A stretch of DNA of 64,000 bases from Streptomyces griseoviridis (GTDB taxonomy: Bacteria; Actinomycetota; Actinomycetes; Streptomycetales; Streptomycetaceae): positions 124,001 through 188,000 of the forward strand of contig NZ_CP029078.1 of NCBI RefSeq assembly GCF_005222485.1, given 5' to 3'. A program made the translations under genes and the position numbers. Below, in pieces: positions 28,210 through 41,270 of the stretch. Position 1 is the first letter of the stretch. Each line of letters begins with the position of its first letter. Under the pieces are notes generated by a model. That model was not told the DNA's origin and did no database searches. It was given only the letters and a program-made list of their open reading frames with translations.

Positions 28210-29898
28210 TCACCGGTGGGGGGCGGGAGCCGCGTCCTGCCCGGCGTCGCCGGGTGGCGCGAGAGGGAGCACGGACGCGCCGTCGGCTTCCGCGTCCGTG
28301 GCGCGGAGGTCTCTCCTGAACGCCGCCGCCAGATCCTTGCGCCCCGGGTTCCCGACCGACCGCGCTCCGTCGACCGGCCGCGAGGGTGTGCGGCGCGGCA
28401 ACGGCACGTCGGCGGGGGCGGGCGGGGGCTGCGGGGCCGGGTGGTGGGACGACCGGAGCGGTCGCGGGAGGACGGGCGGGACCGTACGCCCCGACCGGCC
28501 GGACAGCAGGTCGGGCCCTGGTCCGACCGACCTGAGCGGCAGGGGGATGCGGACGGGGGCGGGCGGCTGGGCGTCGACGAGCAGGGCGGCGGGGACGGTC
28601 ACCAGGGCCGTCGTGCCGTCCGACGCGTTCGCGAGGAGGTGGACGCGGACGCCGTGCCTGCGGGCGATCCTCGCCACCGTGAGCAGCCCGAGCTGTCCCT
28701 TGCGGACCTGCTCGCCCGCGTCGGGCCCCTCGGGCTCCCGCAGGAGCGCGTTCAGCCGCGCCCGGCGTTGCGGGCTCATCGGTGCGGCCCGGTCCTCGAC
28801 CTCGATCGCCAGACCGCCCTCGACCCGCCTGGCCCGTAGGTGGACCAGCGTGGCCGGGTCGGAGTTGTCGCAGGCGTTGTCGACCAACTCGGCGAGCAGA
28901 TGGGCCAGATCGGGGCCCACATGCCCGGGGAGGGCCAGGTCGGTGCCGTCAGGACCGCCCTCGACGATCGCCCGCGGATACTGCGTGGCCTCGGAGACCG
29001 CGCCGCGCAGCACCGTGGTCACGTCGACCGGCCGGCGCCCTCGGCGCAGCGGCTCGGCGCTGAGCACCGCCCTGCTCTCCACCAGCCGCCGCATCCGGGT
29101 GACCAGGTGGTCGACGCGGTAGATCTCGTCCAGCAGCACGGGTTCGTCGGTGAGCCACTGCACGGCGGAGAGCGCGTGCAATGCCCTCCCAATAGTGCTG
29201 AGTCGACGCTGCGTCACATGGCGTTGGAGGTGGCGCACGATTTCGTTCGGCGCGTCGTCGCGCACACGGGCCAGGGCGGTGGTGGCGTCGTCCCGGAGGC
29301 CGTCGAGGAGCCGGACCACCCCCTCGGCGGGGTCGCCCGACCGGGACGGAGCGGCGCCATCGGGGGCGGAGGCAGCGGCGTTCCGGGGGACGGGCGGGCC
29401 GGCGTTCTCGGGGACGGCCGGGGCCGCGTTGCCGGGGACGGGCGGGGCGGGGTGTTCGGAGGCGGGCTGGCCGTGACGTTCGGGGGTGGGTGCTCCGGGC
29501 CCCTCGGTGGCGGGCGGCTGGTCCCGCTCGCAGAGGTCGCGCACCGCTCGGCGCACGGATCTGTCGAGCGTGTGGGCGGCCTCGGTGATCGTGTCGAGAT
29601 CGGCCTCCCTGAGGTCGTCGAACGTCCGCCGCAGGGACGTCACCGCGGTCCGCGCCCGGTGGGCCGCCGTCAGGGCGGCGAGGAACCCGCCGACCGCGAC
29701 CGCCGCGAGCAGCGTGGCCGCCGGGAGCCGGGTGGTCGTCGAGGCGATCACGGCCGCCACCAGCAGGACGGCCTGGGCGACGACGGGGATCACGACCGGC
29801 GCGTGGACCTGGTGGCGCAGCGTCCGCTCCAGTGACGTCGTACGGCGGGGGGCGCGGTGGAGGGCGGCCGGGCGGGCGGGAGACACACGAGCTGGCAT
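28210..29898 (-). CDS. Membrane histidine-kinase-like ATPase (conservon CvnA/NarX-like)
   Basis: 562 aa. Two N-terminal membrane helices (about 33-55 and 58-80) are followed by a helical region, a Pro/Ala repeat linker (PGNAAPAVPENAGPPVPRNAA) and a HATPase_c domain: N-box LAELVDNACDNS, and GQLGLLTVARIARRHG in place of the usual G2 box. The IYRVDHLVTRMRRLVES segment resembles the CvnA proteins of Streptomyces conservons, which have degenerate H-boxes. The C-terminal 130 residues are Pro/Arg-rich and disordered. The roadblock, DUF742 and GTPase genes that normally follow CvnA are absent. ATG 29898 follows GAGGAAG. Confidence 0.8.
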   Translation of the reverse strand: MPARVSPARPAALHRAPRRTTSLERTLRHQVHAPVVIPVVAQAVLLVAAVIASTTTRLPAATLLAAVAVGGFLAALTAAHRARTAVTSLRRTFDDLREADLDTITEAAHTLDRSVRRAVRDLCERDQPPATEGPGAPTPERHGQPASEHPAPPVPGNAAPAVPENAGPPVPRNAAASAPDGAAPSRSGDPAEGVVRLLDGLRDDATTALARVRDDAPNEIVRHLQRHVTQRRLSTIGRALHALSAVQWLTDEPVLLDEIYRVDHLVTRMRRLVESRAVLSAEPLRRGRRPVDVTTVLRGAVSEATQYPRAIVEGGPDGTDLALPGHVGPDLAHLLAELVDNACDNSDPATLVHLRARRVEGGLAIEVEDRAAPMSPQRRARLNALLREPEGPDAGEQVRKGQLGLLTVARIARRHGVRVHLLANASDGTTALVTVPAALLVDAQPPAPVRIPLPLRSVGPGPDLLSGRSGRTVPPVLPRPLRSSHHPAPQPPPAPADVPLPRRTPSRPVDGARSVGNPGRKDLAAAFRRDLRATDAEADGASVLPLAPPGDAGQDAAPAPHR

Positions 29899-30581
29899 GA
29901 CTTCCTCGGAGAACGGGCCTGGAGTGACGGGGAGGGACAAGGAGAGGGATGAGGCGAGAAGCGAGAGGGGGGGTGAGGGGGGCATCGGGCGGGAGCGGGG
30001 CGGCAGCTTCGAGGGGGAGTTCCGCTGACGCGCCGACGCATTCCCGGCCCGACGCCCCGGTCTGTGACGCGCGGGACCGCCGACGGGGAGGGCGTTGTCC
30101 CCGCGGGGTGGTGATTCCCGTGGCGCTGTCAGTCGTGAACTGTACAACTGCGTACCGCTGCTTTCCGCCCTGTTGACAGCGCCCCGTTATTGAACGGTTG
30201 ACCGGTTTACGCGCCGGGTGGCGCTGCCGACTTCTGTGGGTGATTCCGTTCCGGCAGTCCCCTTTTCGGCTCGGCCCGCGTTTCCACCTGAACCCGCCGC
30301 AGGTCAGCGTGTGGAGTTGAGCGACGGTGGTTATTCTTCAGGTTTTTCCGTCGCGACCGGAAAGGCTGCCCGAGTGGAAAGGGACGCGCCTTCGGGGATG
30401 GCCCGCGGGGCATTTTTCGGCCGTGCCTGGCAGGCGATTGTTCAGGCCGGGTGAGCAGTTCGGAATGGCGCGGACAAACGGATGCCCGTGGCGTCGCACC
30501 GCCCCTGTCGGACGCGCGCGGGAACGACGTTCGCGACACGCCGGATGGCCGGGTGAGGTGTTGGTGGGCGGGGCGGTCGGC
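29899..30581. other. Non-coding region upstream of the conservon-like ATPase gene
   Basis: 683 bases between a minus-strand start (29898) and a minus-strand stop (30582). Base composition dips around 30130-30210 and 30230-30350 (for example ttattgaacggttgaccggttt), suitable for a promoter. The 110-codon frame at 30207-30539 has no ribosome binding site and a non-protein-like Arg/Pro composition. I see no gene. Confidence 0.5.
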
Positions 30582-32054
30582 TCAGCCGGTCGCCAGGTGG
30601 AAGGAGAACAGTTCGGCGCATGAACCGGCGCCCGCGCAGCGGGCCGTGACCCGCAGATCGTGGCGTCCTGTCAGAGGGCGGACCCCCGCCGCCACCGCGT
30701 GCGGTCGCTGTCCGGCCGACAGGGCCATGGTGGTCCAGAGTTCGTCGCGCGGGCCGCCGCCGAGCCGGAACTCCAGGCGTGCCGGGCGCCGGGTGACCCG
30801 GGCGACCTCGGCGATCAGCCGGTCCAGGTCCCGCCCGCCGAAGCGCACCCGCTCGTAGACGAGCGAGGCGCCGTCGGGGAGCCGTCGGGCGCCGGGGGCG
30901 TCGGTGGGGAACTCCAGGGTCCCCTGCGCGGAGGCGAACCGGTCGGCGGCGATGGGCCGGTCGGCCCGCAGCGGCGCGCGCGGGTCCTGAGCGGGCGCGG
31001 TGGCACCCCCTCCCCCGGCGGACCACCGGTCCGTGGTGTGCTCGGCCAGCAGCCCCCCGACGACCGCGCCCGCGACGAGCACCAGCACCACCGCCCGCCA
31101 CGCCATTCTGCGCACGGTGCGCAGGACGAGCGCGCACCATCTCCCGCACCGCGCGCGCCGGTGCCGGGCGGCCGGGGTGGCACCGGAACGGGTGCCGGTC
31201 CGCGCGGACGCCCTGGGCGCGAGGGGCGTCACCGTCGCCAGGGGCCCCGGGGCGCGTCGGCGGGCCTTGGCGCGGGCGTACTCCTCGCTCGGCCACCAGC
31301 CCAGCAGACGCGGCGGCAGATGGCGGGCGGCGCGGGCGGGCAGTTCGCCGAGTTCCTCGTGCACGGCACGGCACCGCCGGCATCTGCGCAGATGTTCGAC
31401 GACCGGGGGCGACAGGGGTGCGTCAGGGCGCCGGGTGAGGTGGTCGAGGAAGGGCGCGCAGTCGGCGCCGTCGAGTCGCTCGGTGTGCAGTGCGGAGCGG
31501 GAGTGGCGCAGCGCTTGTTCCGCGCGCCGCAGCGCGATGGTCAGATCGGCGGGTGCCAGGCCGCTGATCGCGGCGAGTGCCGGGGTGTCGTCGCGTTCGA
31601 CGAGGGAGTGCCAGAGCAGGCAGCGCGGTCCGGCGGGCAGCGTCTCGTAGGCGAGGGTCCAGCGGTCGTCCTGGGCCAGCGGCCACACGGCGCCGTCCCG
31701 GAGCCAGTCGACGAAGGGCCGGTGGAAGGAGCCGGGTGCCCTGACCGCCGCCGTCACCGCGTCGAGCCGTACGGATTCGAGCAGTTGGAGCCGGACGCAG
31801 CCGGCGTGCCGTCCCTCGTCGAGGCGGCGCGGGGAGGCGACCCGGTCGCGCAGCCGGGTGAAGGCGCCGGTCACCAGGGAGTCCGCGAGGTCGGGTGAGG
31901 GGGTGCAGGTCGACGCGTAGGCGAGGGCCGCGCCGCGGTGGCGCTGGTGGAGCAGGGCGAGGAGGGAGCCGTGGCCGCCGCGCAGGTCGCGCAGGATCTC
32001 GGCGTCCCCTGGCGGCAGGGCGCGGCCGTGGGGTGCGAAGCCGGTCGGTGACAT
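30582..32054 (-). CDS. Membrane-tethered sigma-factor-like protein with zinc finger, TM helix and extracellular CBM6-like domain
   Basis: 490 aa from ATG 32054 (start uncertain; GTG 32066 is possible; 32055-32347 looks non-coding). Residues about 18-70 resemble sigma-70 region 2 (DAEILRDLRGGHGSLLALL) and 130-185 region 4 (LPAGPRCLLWHSLVE ... ALRRAEQALRHS). H221-x3-C225-x2-C228 is a zf-HC2 anti-sigma-type motif. One TM helix spans 319-338. The outer part (about 370-488) fits a CBM6 beta-sandwich: LVYERVRFGG near the start and LTGRHDLRVTA ... ELFSFHL at the end. I infer a sensor that couples polysaccharide binding outside to transcription inside, conceptually like clostridial RsgI proteins but with the sigma-like part fused. 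Compare the gene at 39501. Confidence 0.72.
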   Translation of the reverse strand: MSPTGFAPHGRALPPGDAEILRDLRGGHGSLLALLHQRHRGAALAYASTCTPSPDLADSLVTGAFTRLRDRVASPRRLDEGRHAGCVRLQLLESVRLDAVTAAVRAPGSFHRPFVDWLRDGAVWPLAQDDRWTLAYETLPAGPRCLLWHSLVERDDTPALAAISGLAPADLTIALRRAEQALRHSRSALHTERLDGADCAPFLDHLTRRPDAPLSPPVVEHLRRCRRCRAVHEELGELPARAARHLPPRLLGWWPSEEYARAKARRRAPGPLATVTPLAPRASARTGTRSGATPAARHRRARCGRWCALVLRTVRRMAWRAVVLVLVAGAVVGGLLAEHTTDRWSAGGGGATAPAQDPRAPLRADRPIAADRFASAQGTLEFPTDAPGARRLPDGASLVYERVRFGGRDLDRLIAEVARVTRRPARLEFRLGGGPRDELWTTMALSAGQRPHAVAAGVRPLTGRHDLRVTARCAGAGSCAELFSFHLATG

Positions 32055-36682: not shown

Positions 36683-37321
36683 CTATCCGCAGTACATGCC
36701 GCGTTCCGCGGCCGTCATCGCGCGGGAGTGCTGCGTCTTGACGCTGGTCTCGCCGTCGGCGGGGCCGGTGGCCTCGAACGGCACGTACCAGTAGCGGTGG
36801 CCGCGGAACCGGTCCTTGAAGATCAGCTCGTAGGTGCCCTTCGCCTTCTGGAGCTTGGGGGCTCTGGTGATCCAACCGACCTCGCCCGCGGGCACGTTGA
36901 GGATCGTGGTCTGGCTCTCGGTGTGCGACGAGGACCAGGTGTGCCGGTAGGACTGCTCGAAGGCCAGCTTGAAGACCGGCCCGAAGGGGAATTTGCGCTC
37001 GAACTCCTCCCGCAGCGACACCCCCATCGAGTTGGACTCGCCCGTGGTGTCCTCCCAGGTCCGCGACGAGGTCTGCGGGTCGTCCGTGCAGTTGTAGACG
37101 GCGTCACCGACCTGGTGGGCCGCGCCGGGGAAGACCGTCAGGTCGCCCGACGGGTGGAAGAGGCACTTGCGGGTGCCGTTGTCGCACCGGCCGAGGAGTT
37201 CGGCGTCCGACGGCGTGCCGTCGTCCGCCCTCGCCGACGGCACGGCGAGGAGGGCGCCGCTCGCCACCATCAGGGCGGCCAGGGTGCTCGCCCGTCGAGC
37301 GCGGTCGCGCGTTCGCAGCAT
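36683..37321 (-). CDS. Secreted aerolysin/ETX-MTX2-like protein, copy A
   Basis: 212 aa with a signal peptide ending near SARA. The N-terminal domain has RCDNGTRKC and YNCT Cys residues. The middle is a long Ser/Thr-alternating beta region (ESNSMGVSLREEF, FEQSYRHTWSSSHTESQTT) followed by VPAGEVGWITR and GTYELIF. This pattern of amphipathic strands, then a VPxG turn, is typical of ETX/MTX2 aerolysin-type beta-pore formers; that assignment is by eye. The C-terminal RGHRYWYVPFEATGP motif is shared with copy B (37363-38040), and the mature protein ends with a Cys. ATG 37321. Third gene of a minus-strand operon, 41 bases after copy B. Confidence 0.7.
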   Translation of the reverse strand: MLRTRDRARRASTLAALMVASGALLAVPSARADDGTPSDAELLGRCDNGTRKCLFHPSGDLTVFPGAAHQVGDAVYNCTDDPQTSSRTWEDTTGESNSMGVSLREEFERKFPFGPVFKLAFEQSYRHTWSSSHTESQTTILNVPAGEVGWITRAPKLQKAKGTYELIFKDRFRGHRYWYVPFEATGPADGETSVKTQHSRAMTAAERGMYCG

Positions 37322-37362
37322 GATGTGTGTTCCCTTCTGCGGGACGCCGGTGGCGCCCGCCG

Positions 37363-38040
37363 TCAGCAGTGCTCGGCCTGCTCCGCGCCGGTCATGGGCC
37401 GGGTCCGCTGGGCCATGGTGCTGGTGTCCAGCGGACCCGTGACCTCGAAGGGGACGTACCAGTAGCGGTGCCCGTGGAACCGGTTCTTGAAGATCAGCTC
37501 GTAGGTTCCGCTGACGCGTTGCAGGTCGGGCGTGCGGGTGACCCAGCCGACGTGACCGGGACGGATGTCCACGAAGGTGGTGGAGCTCTCCGTCACCGCG
37601 TGCTTCCAGGAGTGCTCGAAGCTCGTGGTGACGCTCGCGCTGAAGACGCCCTCCCACCCCACGCCGACGGTCATGGAGAGGCCGAGGCTGTTGGACTCCT
37701 CGGTGGTGTCCGACCATCCGATGCCCGAACGCTGGGCCAGGGCCGTGCAGTTGTAGTCCTCGTCGCCGACCTTCCGGGTGGGGCCCGCCACCTTCACGGG
37801 CGGCCCGTCGGGGTGGAAGACGCACTTACGGGTGCCGTTGTCGCACCGGGCGAGCAGCTCGGCGGGGGTGGGCGGGGCGTCGTCGGCCCACGCGGTGGGG
37901 ACGGTCAGCGCGCCGCCGACGACGAGGGACGCGACGAGGACGCCGGTCAGGCGCAGCCGCCGTCGCGACCTGCCGGCGCGGCTCGGTCCCGGGGTGCGGG
38001 ACGCGGCGGGTGGGTGCGGGCGCACCGGCTCCCCCGTCAC
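37363..38040 (-). CDS. Secreted aerolysin/ETX-MTX2-like protein, copy B
   Basis: 225 aa. GTG 38040 overlaps the stop of the crystallin-like gene as GTGA. The first 60 residues are an Arg-rich n-region, a hydrophobic helix (LTGVLVASLVVGGALTVPTA) and a cleavage site at WA. It shares ELLxRCDNGTRKCxFHPxG, YNCT, ESNSxGxS and GTYELIFKxRFxGHRYWYVPFE with copy A; the central strands differ more (SASVTTSFEHSWKHAVTESS), as expected of a diverged pair. The putative membrane-insertion region is the Ser/Thr-rich stretch in the middle. Duplicated adjacent copies suggest a two-component assembly. The function is inferred; it could instead be a non-toxic adhesin or inhibitor. Confidence 0.7.
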   Translation of the reverse strand: MTGEPVRPHPPAASRTPGPSRAGRSRRRLRLTGVLVASLVVGGALTVPTAWADDAPPTPAELLARCDNGTRKCVFHPDGPPVKVAGPTRKVGDEDYNCTALAQRSGIGWSDTTEESNSLGLSMTVGVGWEGVFSASVTTSFEHSWKHAVTESSTTFVDIRPGHVGWVTRTPDLQRVSGTYELIFKNRFHGHRYWYVPFEVTGPLDTSTMAQRTRPMTGAEQAEHC

Positions 38041-38573
38041 CGGAACTCGATGGACTGCGCGAGGTCGTTGAACGGTCCGTCGATGACGGGCGTCAGCTCC
38101 TTGAGCGGTGCGGAGGCGGCGCCCTCCAGGTAGGGCCGGGAGTGCAGCACGAGGTCGCACTCGGCCCAGCCCTGCACGGAGGAGACCCGGCCCTTCCACT
38201 CCTCGGGGAGGTTGAAGTAGAAGTCGGCCTTGCCGTCGCTGTGGCAGGGGTGGCTGCCCCAGAGGGTGATCGACCTGCCGCCGTAGCGCCAGTGCTCGAA
38301 CAGGGTGCCGATCACCACGTCGCTGGGCTGCTGGACCCCGGTCTGGGCGCTGGCGGCGTTGTCCTTGATCTGCTGGGTGGCGAAAGCCCGCGCCTCGGTC
38401 TCGGTGCCGAAGCACTCCTTTTCCTTGCTGCCGACATTGTAGGCGCAGTGGGAGCCGTCGCCGGGGGTGTCGGCATCCGCGGTGCCTGCCATCAGGGAGG
38501 CAAGGAAGACGAATCCGAGGACGCCGGCGCCCGAGGCGACCGCGACCCTGGTCCTTCTCGTCGTGAACTGCAT
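38037..38573 (-). CDS. Secreted beta/gamma-crystallin-like protein
   Basis: 178 aa. The signal peptide MQFTTRRTRVAVASGAGVLG... ends near ADA. The mature part starts with a Cys pair (CAYNVGSKEKEC) and a helix, then TLFEHWRYGGRSITLWGS, a Greek-key beta/gamma-crystallin motif, then LPEEWKGRVSSVQGWAECDLVLHS, the second Greek-key strand set with its W-x2-R-x-S-S core. Such folds occur in secreted Ca2+-binding proteins, Streptomyces killer-toxin-like proteins and metalloprotease inhibitors. ATG 38573 follows AGAGGAAA. First gene of the operon with the two aerolysin-like proteins, translationally coupled to copy B. Confidence 0.72.
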   Translation of the reverse strand: MQFTTRRTRVAVASGAGVLGFVFLASLMAGTADADTPGDGSHCAYNVGSKEKECFGTETEARAFATQQIKDNAASAQTGVQQPSDVVIGTLFEHWRYGGRSITLWGSHPCHSDGKADFYFNLPEEWKGRVSSVQGWAECDLVLHSRPYLEGAASAPLKELTPVIDGPFNDLAQSIEFR

Positions 38574-39500
38574 GGGGACGAATTTCCTCTCTCTGCGGTG
38601 ACCGCGTTCTCCGGGCTCGCTCGCCGGGAGCGGTCTCTCCGTAACTCGCTCCAGGGGTGGGGGAATTGCGTCCGTTCTTTCCCTGGATCGCATCGGAGGC
38701 GTTCGCCATCCTGCGACCACACACCGGGCCGCCACCACTCGAATCCGCGCGTGCGGCGAACTCTTTGTGGATGACCTGGGCGCGGGCATGTTCTGCTCGC
38801 ATAGGTCCGCTTTATTAGGGGATCGGGGGCTGTGAACGTGACGGGAGGCGCGAGGCGGGTCGCACCGCGCCGTGCGGGAGGGCGCCGAGCGGCAGGGTCA
38901 ACTGATCGTGGCTCATGAGCAGTTGGCCTGCGACAACAGGCCCGACCGAGGGCTGCCCGCGTCCCCGTGTCGCAGGCTCCCGCCACCGTCGCCGAGGACC
39001 AGCGCGCCTGCCCACCGGACCGTCCCGCCGGCCGACTGATCGGCCTCCGCCACTCCAGCCGCCCTCAACCCGCCTACAGTAGGTAGCCATTCGCCGGTCG
39101 CGCCTCCTACTGAATCCCGCGCAATTCGGTGAACGTCTCGCGGGACGCGCCCCGGAGCGACTACCGCCCGTAGGCGGGCAGTTGAACAGACGTCAGGGGA
39201 ACCGCGTATTCAGCCGTGGAAAAGAACCGTGCAGGGACCACGGGTCGCGTCACGGAGAAGTCCGCCGGGCGGCAAGGGAACGGCTCTCGCGGCCAACTCC
39301 CTTTCCTCACGCGGCCGTTACGGAACTGAAATGCGGGCGGTCAGCCGGTTTTGCCTGGGTCGAAGGGTCGTGCCAAGGTGCGTCGCGGCGCACGAGGTGC
39401 CCGCCGTCACGGAATTCCGGGTGCGGCGGTACATCTTTCGACCTTCTTCTCCGGCCTGCCGACTGCCGTGCGTTCCCGGGCTGTCCATGAAAGAGGAACC
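38574..39500. other. Divergent non-coding region between secreted operon and CBM2 sensor gene
   Basis: 927 bases without a supported gene. An A+T-richer island lies at 38760-38825 (gcataggtccgctttatta). CCTAC-A-GTAGG at 39073-39083 is a perfect palindrome, and CTCCTACTGAA appears again at 39105, possible regulator sites. The open frame at 38815-39090 has no ribosome binding site. Promoters for both flanking genes must be here. Confidence 0.5.
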
Positions 39501-41270
39501 TTGTCGAACTGGCTTCCTTCCCGTCCGCCGGAGCGGCACTCCGTCATCGAGAGCGCGCCGCGCGATCCCGTCATCGGACTGCGGCTCTGGGAGGACCGGC
39601 GCGGCCCGGTCCTCGCCTACGCGGGCCTGTGCACCCGTGACCGGGCGGCGGCCGTCGAACTCGCCGACCAGGTCGTACGGTTCGGCGGTTGCGCGCCGCG
39701 TGGGGACCGCTCGTGGCTCGACGGCCTGCCGAGCGTTCCGGTCGCCGTCCAGACGGTCCTGGACACGGCGGCGGGGTGGGCCGCGACCCCGGCGGGGCAG
39801 CGGCTCCTCGCCCCGGATCTGCTGACCTGGTTCGACACGGAGGGCGCCGACCGGGGCGGGTGGGCCGACCCGCAGCCGCTCGCGGTGCGGGGGCTGCGGG
39901 CGATGGGCGCGGACGACGCCGAACTCCTCTGGTGGAGCGGCGTGGAAGGCGTGCCCGTCGACGAACTCGCGCGCCGCCTCGGCCGGCGGAGCGTCGAGGT
40001 CGCCACGGAAGTCGACCGGGTGCGCGAGGAGTTCAGGGAGCGCTGCCGGCTGGCCCACGGACTCCACCTCGCCGACCCGGTCTGCCGCTCGTACGCCGGG
40101 CTCCTGGACGCCACCGCGCGGGAGAGCGCGCCGTCCACCCCCGTCGGTCTCCTCCAGCACCTCGACACCTGCGCGGAGTGCCGTACCGCCTTCACCTGTC
40201 TCAGCCTCGACGGCGCCCCGCTCTCGCCGGTGATCGCGGCGGCGGCGCTGCGCTGGAAGGGCCGTACGTATGTGGCGCGACGGCGCCGGCAGCTCGCGGC
40301 GGCGCCCACGGTCGCGGTGCCGTCGCCGTCGCCCGTCCCCGCGGGCCGGCGTCGGGCCGGGGCCCCCGTCGACCGGGGGGACCGGCCGCTCCTGGTGGCC
40401 GGCACCGCCGTCGCCCTGGTGCTGGTGGTGACCGGGGCCTGCGTGTGGTGCGACAGCCCACGCGACGGCGGTTCGACGCCGAAGGCCGGTGTCGGCGCCG
40501 AGTTCCACGGCGGCGGGCTCACGGCCTCGCCCTCGGCCGATCCCTCTGGCCCGGAGAGGCCCGGTCACGGGCCGGGGCGGGAGACGGGACGCGGGTCGTC
40601 CGTGCGGCCCGCGGGCGACAACACCCCTGTCCCGGCCGGCGACGACTCGGCACGGCCCGCTCCCCCGCCGCCGGCCGACGCGGTCTGCCGCGCCCTGTTC
40701 GGTGTGCGGGACCCCTGGGCGGACCCCGTCGAGGCGGCGCTCGTACTGCGGGCGGGGCGGGCCCTCGAAGGGGGCTGGTCCGTGACCTTCGTGCTGGCGC
40801 GCGGGGTGGAGATCCACGGCGTCCGGGGCGGCCGTGCGGTCCGGGACGGGCGCGTGGTCCGGGTGACCGCGGGACCGGACGCAGCCGCCGTGGCTGCGGA
40901 CGCCGCGCTCGACCTCGGCCTCGCGCTGAGCGGCTCCCCCGACGGCGGGTGGCTCTCCGGGGTCCGGGTCGACGGCAGGCCCTGCTCACTCACCACGACC
41001 ACGCCCCCGCAGACCGAGGAACCCCCGCGCGGGGGCGGCGACGGCGGCCGGGAGGGGGACGACGACGGTGACGGAGAGGGCCGCGGCGGAGAGGACGGTC
41101 GAGGGTCGGGCTCCGGGCACGGTTCCGGTTCCGGTGAAGGACACGGCGACGGCGGACGAGGGGGCGGGGACGGCGGCGGAGGCGGCGGCCGGGACGGAGG
41201 TGACGGAGGCGACGGCCGAGGCGGAGGTGACGGGGGCGGAGGCGGAGGCGGAGGCGGCGGAGGCTGGTGA
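39501..41270 (+). CDS. Membrane-tethered sigma-factor-like protein with zinc finger, TM helix, CBM2-like domain and Gly-rich tail
   Basis: 589 aa if TTG 39501 is used (AAAGAGG just upstream); the start is uncertain. Residues 25-62 resemble a shortened sigma region 2 (LRLWEDRRGPVLAYAGLC) and 125-180 region 4 (LRAMGADDAELLWWSGVEG, RVREEFRERC). H220-x3-C224-x2-C227 is zf-HC2-like. A TM helix spans about 297-314. The outer domain 396-497 matches CBM2: Cys396 and Cys495 as its disulfide, GGWSVTFVLARGVEI, the DGRVVRVTAG strand and VDGRPC at the end. Residues 505-589 are almost only Gly/Asp/Glu/Arg/Ser. Same plan as the protein at 30582 but with another CBM family, pointing to cellulose-type ligands. 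Sensing of polysaccharide and release or modulation of transcription is inferred. Confidence 0.72.
   Translation: MSNWLPSRPPERHSVIESAPRDPVIGLRLWEDRRGPVLAYAGLCTRDRAAAVELADQVVRFGGCAPRGDRSWLDGLPSVPVAVQTVLDTAAGWAATPAGQRLLAPDLLTWFDTEGADRGGWADPQPLAVRGLRAMGADDAELLWWSGVEGVPVDELARRLGRRSVEVATEVDRVREEFRERCRLAHGLHLADPVCRSYAGLLDATARESAPSTPVGLLQHLDTCAECRTAFTCLSLDGAPLSPVIAAAALRWKGRTYVARRRRQLAAAPTVAVPSPSPVPAGRRRAGAPVDRGDRPLLVAGTAVALVLVVTGACVWCDSPRDGGSTPKAGVGAEFHGGGLTASPSADPSGPERPGHGPGRETGRGSSVRPAGDNTPVPAGDDSARPAPPPPADAVCRALFGVRDPWADPVEAALVLRAGRALEGGWSVTFVLARGVEIHGVRGGRAVRDGRVVRVTAGPDAAAVAADAALDLGLALSGSPDGGWLSGVRVDGRPCSLTTTTPPQTEEPPRGGGDGGREGDDDGDGEGRGGEDGRGSGSGHGSGSGEGHGDGGRGGGDGGGGGGRDGGDGGDGRGGGDGGGGGGGGGGGW

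Follow-up and report, generated by a model that had tools for sequence, protein, structure and literature searches.

Gene and domain organization

The window analysed here, a stretch of 64,000 nucleotides from Streptomyces griseoviridis, carries on its reverse strand a single open frame of 490 codons (30582..32054) encoding a 490 amino acid protein with sigma-like, zinc anti-sigma-like, membrane helix, and CBM6-fold parts. The frame has homologues along its full length, and codon-position GC was also taken as evidence that it is a gene. From the N-terminus, the product comprises a sigma2-like domain (31731..32015, residues 14-108), a sigma4-like helix-turn-helix (HTH) domain (31479..31694, residues 121-192), a zinc anti-sigma-type domain (31257..31475, residues 194-266) containing C199/H221/C225/C228 and an LGWW motif, a single membrane helix at about residues 318-337 (31044..31103), and an outer CBM6-type beta-sandwich (30585..30968, residues 363-490), all encoded on the reverse strand.

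The sigma2-sigma4 fold across residues 14-192 was identified from a structure model by structure comparison, and the C-terminal beta-sandwich of CBM6 type from the model and a fold search. The membrane helix has a hydropathy of 2.16 across 19 residues, and the predicted model places it, with low confidence, at residues 306-335; a linker of about 30 residues with four prolines connects it to the CBM6 fold. A Pfam scan of the protein returned no matches, the cut-off of PF03422 (CBM6) thus not being reached, and an NCBIfam scan gave a chance-level match and no sigma match. No receiver domain was found by Pfam up to E 10, the C-terminal part having the CBM6 fold. Sequence and models together show the architecture of a predicted one-pass membrane receptor, in which the sigma-like and zinc parts would be cytoplasmic and the CBM6-type sandwich would lie outside.

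The first-pass annotation had proposed these same elements, namely sigma regions 2 and 4, an HxxxCxxC anti-sigma-type motif, one membrane helix between the zinc domain and the outer part, and a CBM6-like sandwich, and each is borne out by the fold comparisons, the zinc ligand pattern, or the hydropathy given above. The models contain both folds on which it had staked its reading, a sigma fold within residues 1-190 and a CBM fold within residues 370-490. The observation is therefore confirmed, and the interpretation placed on it is partly supported.

Adjacent genes encode a DeoR-type regulator and a histidine-kinase-type ATPase (HATPase) domain protein (28210-30147, reverse strand), the latter being the next gene downstream at 0.4 to 0.7 kb depending on start choice; no separate sigma gene adjoins it in the manner of RsgI systems. 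About 3 kb downstream lies a Spherulin4-family protein (PF12138; 26757-27632, reverse strand), which we take to be possibly a secreted polysaccharide hydrolase. Two further observations were made in the window. One further member of the wider superfamily (39351-41270, forward strand; paralogue at G000:C1:6999682) combines a very divergent sigma-like part with a zinc-type Cys motif, a Gly/Asp-rich tail, and what looks like a single membrane helix, and has no Pfam match. At about 36683-38802 on the reverse strand, adjacent frames encode similar, apparently secreted proteins that share the motif RCDNGTRKC and end like GTYELIFKxRFxGHRYWYVPFE, an apparent tandem family.

Relationship to ECF52 proteins

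A database search with the window protein yielded eight relatives: a near-identical copy (P0002), six full-length relatives with 77 to 40% identity (P0003-P0008), and a shorter one (P0009) with 39% identity across 55% of the query. CBM_6 was detected at the C-terminus above the Pfam cut-off in P0006, P0007, and P0008 and below it in P0004 and P0005. Sigma70_r4_2 was found at its cut-off in P0009, Sigma70_r2 below cut-off in more distant relatives (L013, L079, and L087), and zf-HC2 matches in the relatives were weak.

The same order of parts has been described for SCO4117 of Streptomyces coelicolor, a member of the ECF52 family, which is exclusive to Actinobacteria; it combines a sigma domain, a zinc finger, a membrane region, a proline-rich extension, and a carbohydrate-binding domain (PMC5826349, published in 2018). 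A review gives much the same account (PMC8999054), and both sources propose that the sigma part is released by proteolysis. Attempts to overproduce SCO4117 are reported to have been unsuccessful (PMC5826349). Glycosyl hydrolase and carbohydrate-binding domains are predicted in some ECF52 and ECF53 proteins, a prediction described as lacking experimental validation (PMC10766802). The genome of the window also encodes a protein, P0012, with Sigma70_r2, zf-HC2, and NPCBM all above Pfam cut-offs and a long Pro-rich stretch, which we call SCO4117-like because of these domains and a TetR-type gene upstream that was read by eye as atrA-like. The first-pass annotation was thus right that no separate anti-sigma is seen adjoining the gene, but the fusion of sigma, anti-sigma, and sensor it pointed to is not unprecedented, since ECF52 proteins such as SCO4117 share the order of parts (PMC5826349, PMC8999054) and a SCO4117-like gene is present in the same genome.

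Using SCO4117-like proteins, P0012 among them, as stand-ins for SCO4117, we found that the window protein shares 28% identity with P0012 over residues 11-262 (BLASTP, E 6e-17), a span that runs through the zinc domain to residue 262, and that C199/H221/C225/C228 align with the SCO4117-like zinc finger. In a tree with 11 other ECFs of the genome as outgroup, ECF52 and the window family split off jointly (100/100), and the 14 family genes included formed their own group (98/96). A larger set of 24 family genes likewise formed one group apart from ECF52-type proteins (100/99, midpoint root). Two paralogues from the same genome, P0013 and P0014, have ricin-type lectin domains and no Pfam sigma match. 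The genome's ricin-type paralogues with Arg at the position of sigmaH W81, whose sigma parts are degenerate, lie about 20 kb apart (L002 and L004, at 8.265 and 8.285 Mb).

Loss of sigma signature residues

The sigma2 part was aligned with the full set of 50 sigma2 domains that Pfam detects in this genome. Three of the positions compared are those of sigma70 D403, Q406, and E407, which we take to be residues of region 2.2 involved in core contact. An acid occupies the D403-equivalent position in 49/50 controls and the E407-equivalent in 34/50, and Gln the Q406-equivalent in 41/50, whereas the window protein has Ser, Gly, and Thr, respectively; selection of the controls by a Pfam model favours conserved residues. 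SigmaA and ECFs share conserved residues for contact with the beta' coiled-coil, and W81 of sigmaH forms part of the -10 pocket, with W81A, I85A, and N88A all impairing transcription (PMC6411747). The W81 position is W, Y, or F in every one of the 50 controls; it is Gln in the window protein and in P0003-P0009 (8/8), and Arg in P0013 and P0014. In SCO4117-like proteins, the 403, 406, 407, and W81 positions read D, A, E, and Y in all of the best 120 of 3176 matches, which are close kin of one another, and an aromatic residue is found at the W81 position in 9/11 ECF52-type rows of the family alignment. Across the 24 family genes, the W81 position is never aromatic in this sense (W/Y/F in 0/24; 12 Gln, 4 His, 8 others), Gln is absent at 406 (0/24), and acids are found at 407 in one gene and at 403 in nine.

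These losses bear directly on whether the protein, as the first-pass annotation assumed, is a working sigma factor, an assumption left unsupported now that the -10 pocket and core-contact residues are found to be gone. The main rival to our interpretation nonetheless takes this form: an ECF52-like sigma, tethered at the membrane by its own zinc domain, would be released when an outside signal leads to proteolysis, the mode suggested for SCO4117. In its favour are the ECF52 order of parts and common descent, a sigma fold that is intact in the model, the published proposal of proteolytic release in ECF52 (PMC5826349, PMC8999054), the acid retained at the D403 position in nine family genes, and the finding that promoter contacts differ between ECF groups (PMC6411747). 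It is opposed by the window protein having neither the aromatic nor the D403/Q406/E407 equivalents, set against an aromatic residue throughout the genome controls and the best-listed SCO4117-like proteins and in most ECF52-type rows. We consider it quite possible, if on balance doubtful.

We favour the reading that the sigma part is a conserved pseudo-sigma acting by protein contact rather than by directing RNA polymerase, a proposal that we regard as evenly poised between right and wrong. Several observations weigh against it: the His found at the W81 position in four genes is able to stack, an acid is kept at D403 in some members, Gln at 406 is missing from intact ECF52 proteins too, in which the I85 and N88 positions also vary, and sigmaH R186, a -35 contact, seems by eye to be retained.

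Distribution and selection

A second profile scan of genome contigs gave 20 loci, which were pooled with the earlier loci and the window and freed of duplicates. The resulting family comprises 22 loci holding 24 genes that include a sigma2 part, from Streptomyces, Wenjunlia, and Kitasatospora (Streptomycetaceae); a family match at E <= 1e-20 was found in 6/101 Streptomyces genomes searched, that of the window included. In two genomes, two family genes are present on different contigs (L087 and L088 in Wenjunlia tyrosinilytica; L077 and L082 in Streptomyces coffeae).

Between the window gene and its counterpart in Streptomyces sp. SolWspMP-5a-2 (L075), which is cut by a contig end, dN/dS is 0.21 in sigma2, 0.21 in sigma4, 0.34 in the zinc domain, and 1.07 in 25 linker codons. 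Corresponding values for sigma2, sigma4, zinc domain, linker, and CBM6 part are 0.25, 0.22, 0.25, 0.42, and 0.39 for L076-L077, and 0.27, 0.20, 0.32, 0.72, and 0.30 for L076-L011. By these values, the sigma-like part is kept rather than rotting. A decaying paralogue devoid of function would fit the small share of Streptomyces genomes with a match and the loss of sigma signature residues, but the full-length frame persists across separate species, dN/dS is 0.20-0.39 in the folded domains of all three pairs, and the tree identifies the family as one old group, which makes this explanation very improbable.

Sigma2 ranks with the best-conserved segments (89% identity to P0003), sigma4 is about equally conserved, and all four zinc ligands are retained in 22/24 family genes. 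The conservation of sigma4 and of the zinc ligands would suit an output through the sigma4-like HTH alone, as a tethered DNA-binding regulator, or through the zinc domain alone, as a free anti-sigma acting on an unlinked sigma, with sigma2 as scaffold. We nevertheless judge this improbable: sigma2, by its identity and its low dN/dS, is more conserved than a scaffold would seem to need, and two family genes (L013 3757-4539 and L078 4464-5849) have lost the zinc ligands.

The outer part varies. Among 11 family genes from other loci scanned with Pfam, CBM_6 exceeded the cut-off in three (L011, L087, and L091), fell below it in two (L012 and L079), and was absent in six (L013 5758-6984, L014, L015, L016, L078 5950-7488, and L090). 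In the family proteins of L012, L013, L014, and L015, a Cys directly behind the membrane helix (LTAC, LASC, LAAC, and APSC, respectively) resembles a lipobox, but the helix is internal.

Tandem arrangement with ECF52-type genes

In 7/22 loci (L012, L013, L014, L078, L079, L080, and L090), an ECF52-type gene lies directly upstream of the family gene on the same strand, with a gap of 35 to 317 bases where a Met start could be placed (five loci) and adjoining or overlapping frames in L079 and L080 (L080 being from Streptomyces piniterrae); L078 has two consecutive family genes. The upstream partners have Sigma70_r2 over the cut-off in six of seven cases, L090 being just under (23.4 vs 24 bits), and each of the seven carries Tyr at the W81 position as well as ricin-lectin matches, over cut-off in L012 and L013 and below it in the other five. 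In L086, an intact ECF52-type gene is found nearby on the opposite strand. Two family genes behind intact ECF52 genes, both on the forward strand, are those without zinc ligands noted above; the product of the one in L013 has 261 amino acids and by eye no membrane helix, and is possibly a free-standing pseudo-sigma.

No ECF52-type neighbour was found in the subclade of the window gene (five genes: window, L075, L076, L011, and L077), and the tandem family genes fall mostly within one subclade of the tree, so the pairing bears on the window gene by kinship only. A functional reading of the pairs must also contend with the fact that one old tandem duplication could leave such pairs too.

The outer CBM6-type domain

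In CtGH11-CBM6, Tyr34 and Trp92 stack on xylopentaose, and a natural CBM6 without these two residues is known whose model shows the cleft lost (PMC10284105). With numbering anchored by a profile alignment with 1gmm, the Tyr34 position corresponds to R391 in the window protein and the Trp92 loop is absent from the family; both cleft-A aromatics are missing in 9/9 aligned family rows. Among the genome's own CBM6 modules over the Pfam cut-off, Trp is kept in 3/3, and because only 1/3 has an aromatic residue at the Tyr34 position, the lack of the Trp loop carries more weight, the Tyr34 position being weak evidence. The domain differs from the CBM6 modules of xylanases (CsCBM6-3 and CtGH11-CBM6) in lacking the Trp92 loop and in having Arg at the Tyr34 position. 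Polysaccharide binding, which the first-pass annotation attributed to the outer domain, finds no support in a fold without the Trp loop of canonical cleft A.

Proposed mechanism

The protein shares descent with ECF52-type sigma factors and is best explained as a receptor derived from them. In its sigma part, selection maintains the fold and the family's own motifs, whereas the residues through which ECF sigma factors contact the beta' coiled-coil and the -10 element have been lost. It would thus be a pseudo-sigma, unable to act as a sigma factor and acting through protein contact. An outside signal would cause the protein to be changed or cut, upon which the sigma-like or zinc domain might, in a PhyR-like manner, enter a swap of partners with a sigma/anti-sigma protein of intact ECF52 type. 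Such an exchange would suit a zinc domain that no longer has a functional sigma in cis and, in some loci, has an intact ECF52 adjacent to it.

In its widest form, this proposal envisages a clade of membrane-bound sigma mimics that arose from ECF52 in Streptomycetaceae, in which a transcription-dead sigma domain controls an intact ECF52 and partner exchange at the membrane combines the inputs of two surface sensors. We advance it tentatively, as rather unlikely in this full form. Equally tentative is the assignment of roles that goes with it, whereby the CBM6-type sensor would govern the window protein and the controlled ECF52 would be the product of the upstream gene, with its lectin-type sensor, in a third of loci. 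In ECF52, a sigma is known to share one chain with its presumed inhibitor and with a surface sensor, and a related, conserved clade whose sigma part is crippled, and which is in some loci encoded behind an intact ECF52, offers a natural comparison for the role of a non-transcribing sigma domain. It also bears on whether the actinobacterial membrane has sigma mimicry outside the PhyR system.

Comparison with known systems

RsgI of cellulolytic clostridia is a membrane anti-sigma with an outer CBM-type sensor, separate from its sigma. It resembles the window protein in having such a sensor on a membrane protein tied to sigma control, and differs in that the sigma-like part of the window protein is in the same chain.

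PhyR is a soluble protein, and PhyR entries are among the fold-search matches of the sigma-like part. In Alphaproteobacteria, it titrates the anti-sigma NepR through a sigma-like domain with degenerate core and promoter regions, and it has a receiver domain (PMC8103513). The window protein likewise has a degenerate sigma-like domain, but a membrane helix and a CBM6 fold in place of the receiver. IutY/ECF243 of Pseudomonas putida is a fused, siderophore-responsive sigma/anti-sigma activated by proteolysis (PMC8999054), and shares with the window protein a sigma part and a membrane part in one chain; the account of it in that review mentions no CBM.

The closest resemblance in order of parts is to ECF52. 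Both have sigma2 and sigma4 domains (in the window protein by fold only), a zinc finger behind sigma4, membrane helices (one in the window protein, one or more in ECF52), and an outer domain of carbohydrate-binding type, which in the window protein is CBM6-type instead of NPCBM. The long proline-rich extension ahead of the outer domain is absent from the window protein, the sigma signature residues kept in SCO4117-like proteins are lost, and the family groups with these proteins in the tree, yet on a separate branch. Because the signature residues and the proline-rich extension are missing, we file the window protein as a related variant rather than a member of ECF52. In its architecture the protein follows the known ECF52 pattern and represents no new kind; what differs is the sigma-degenerate clade.
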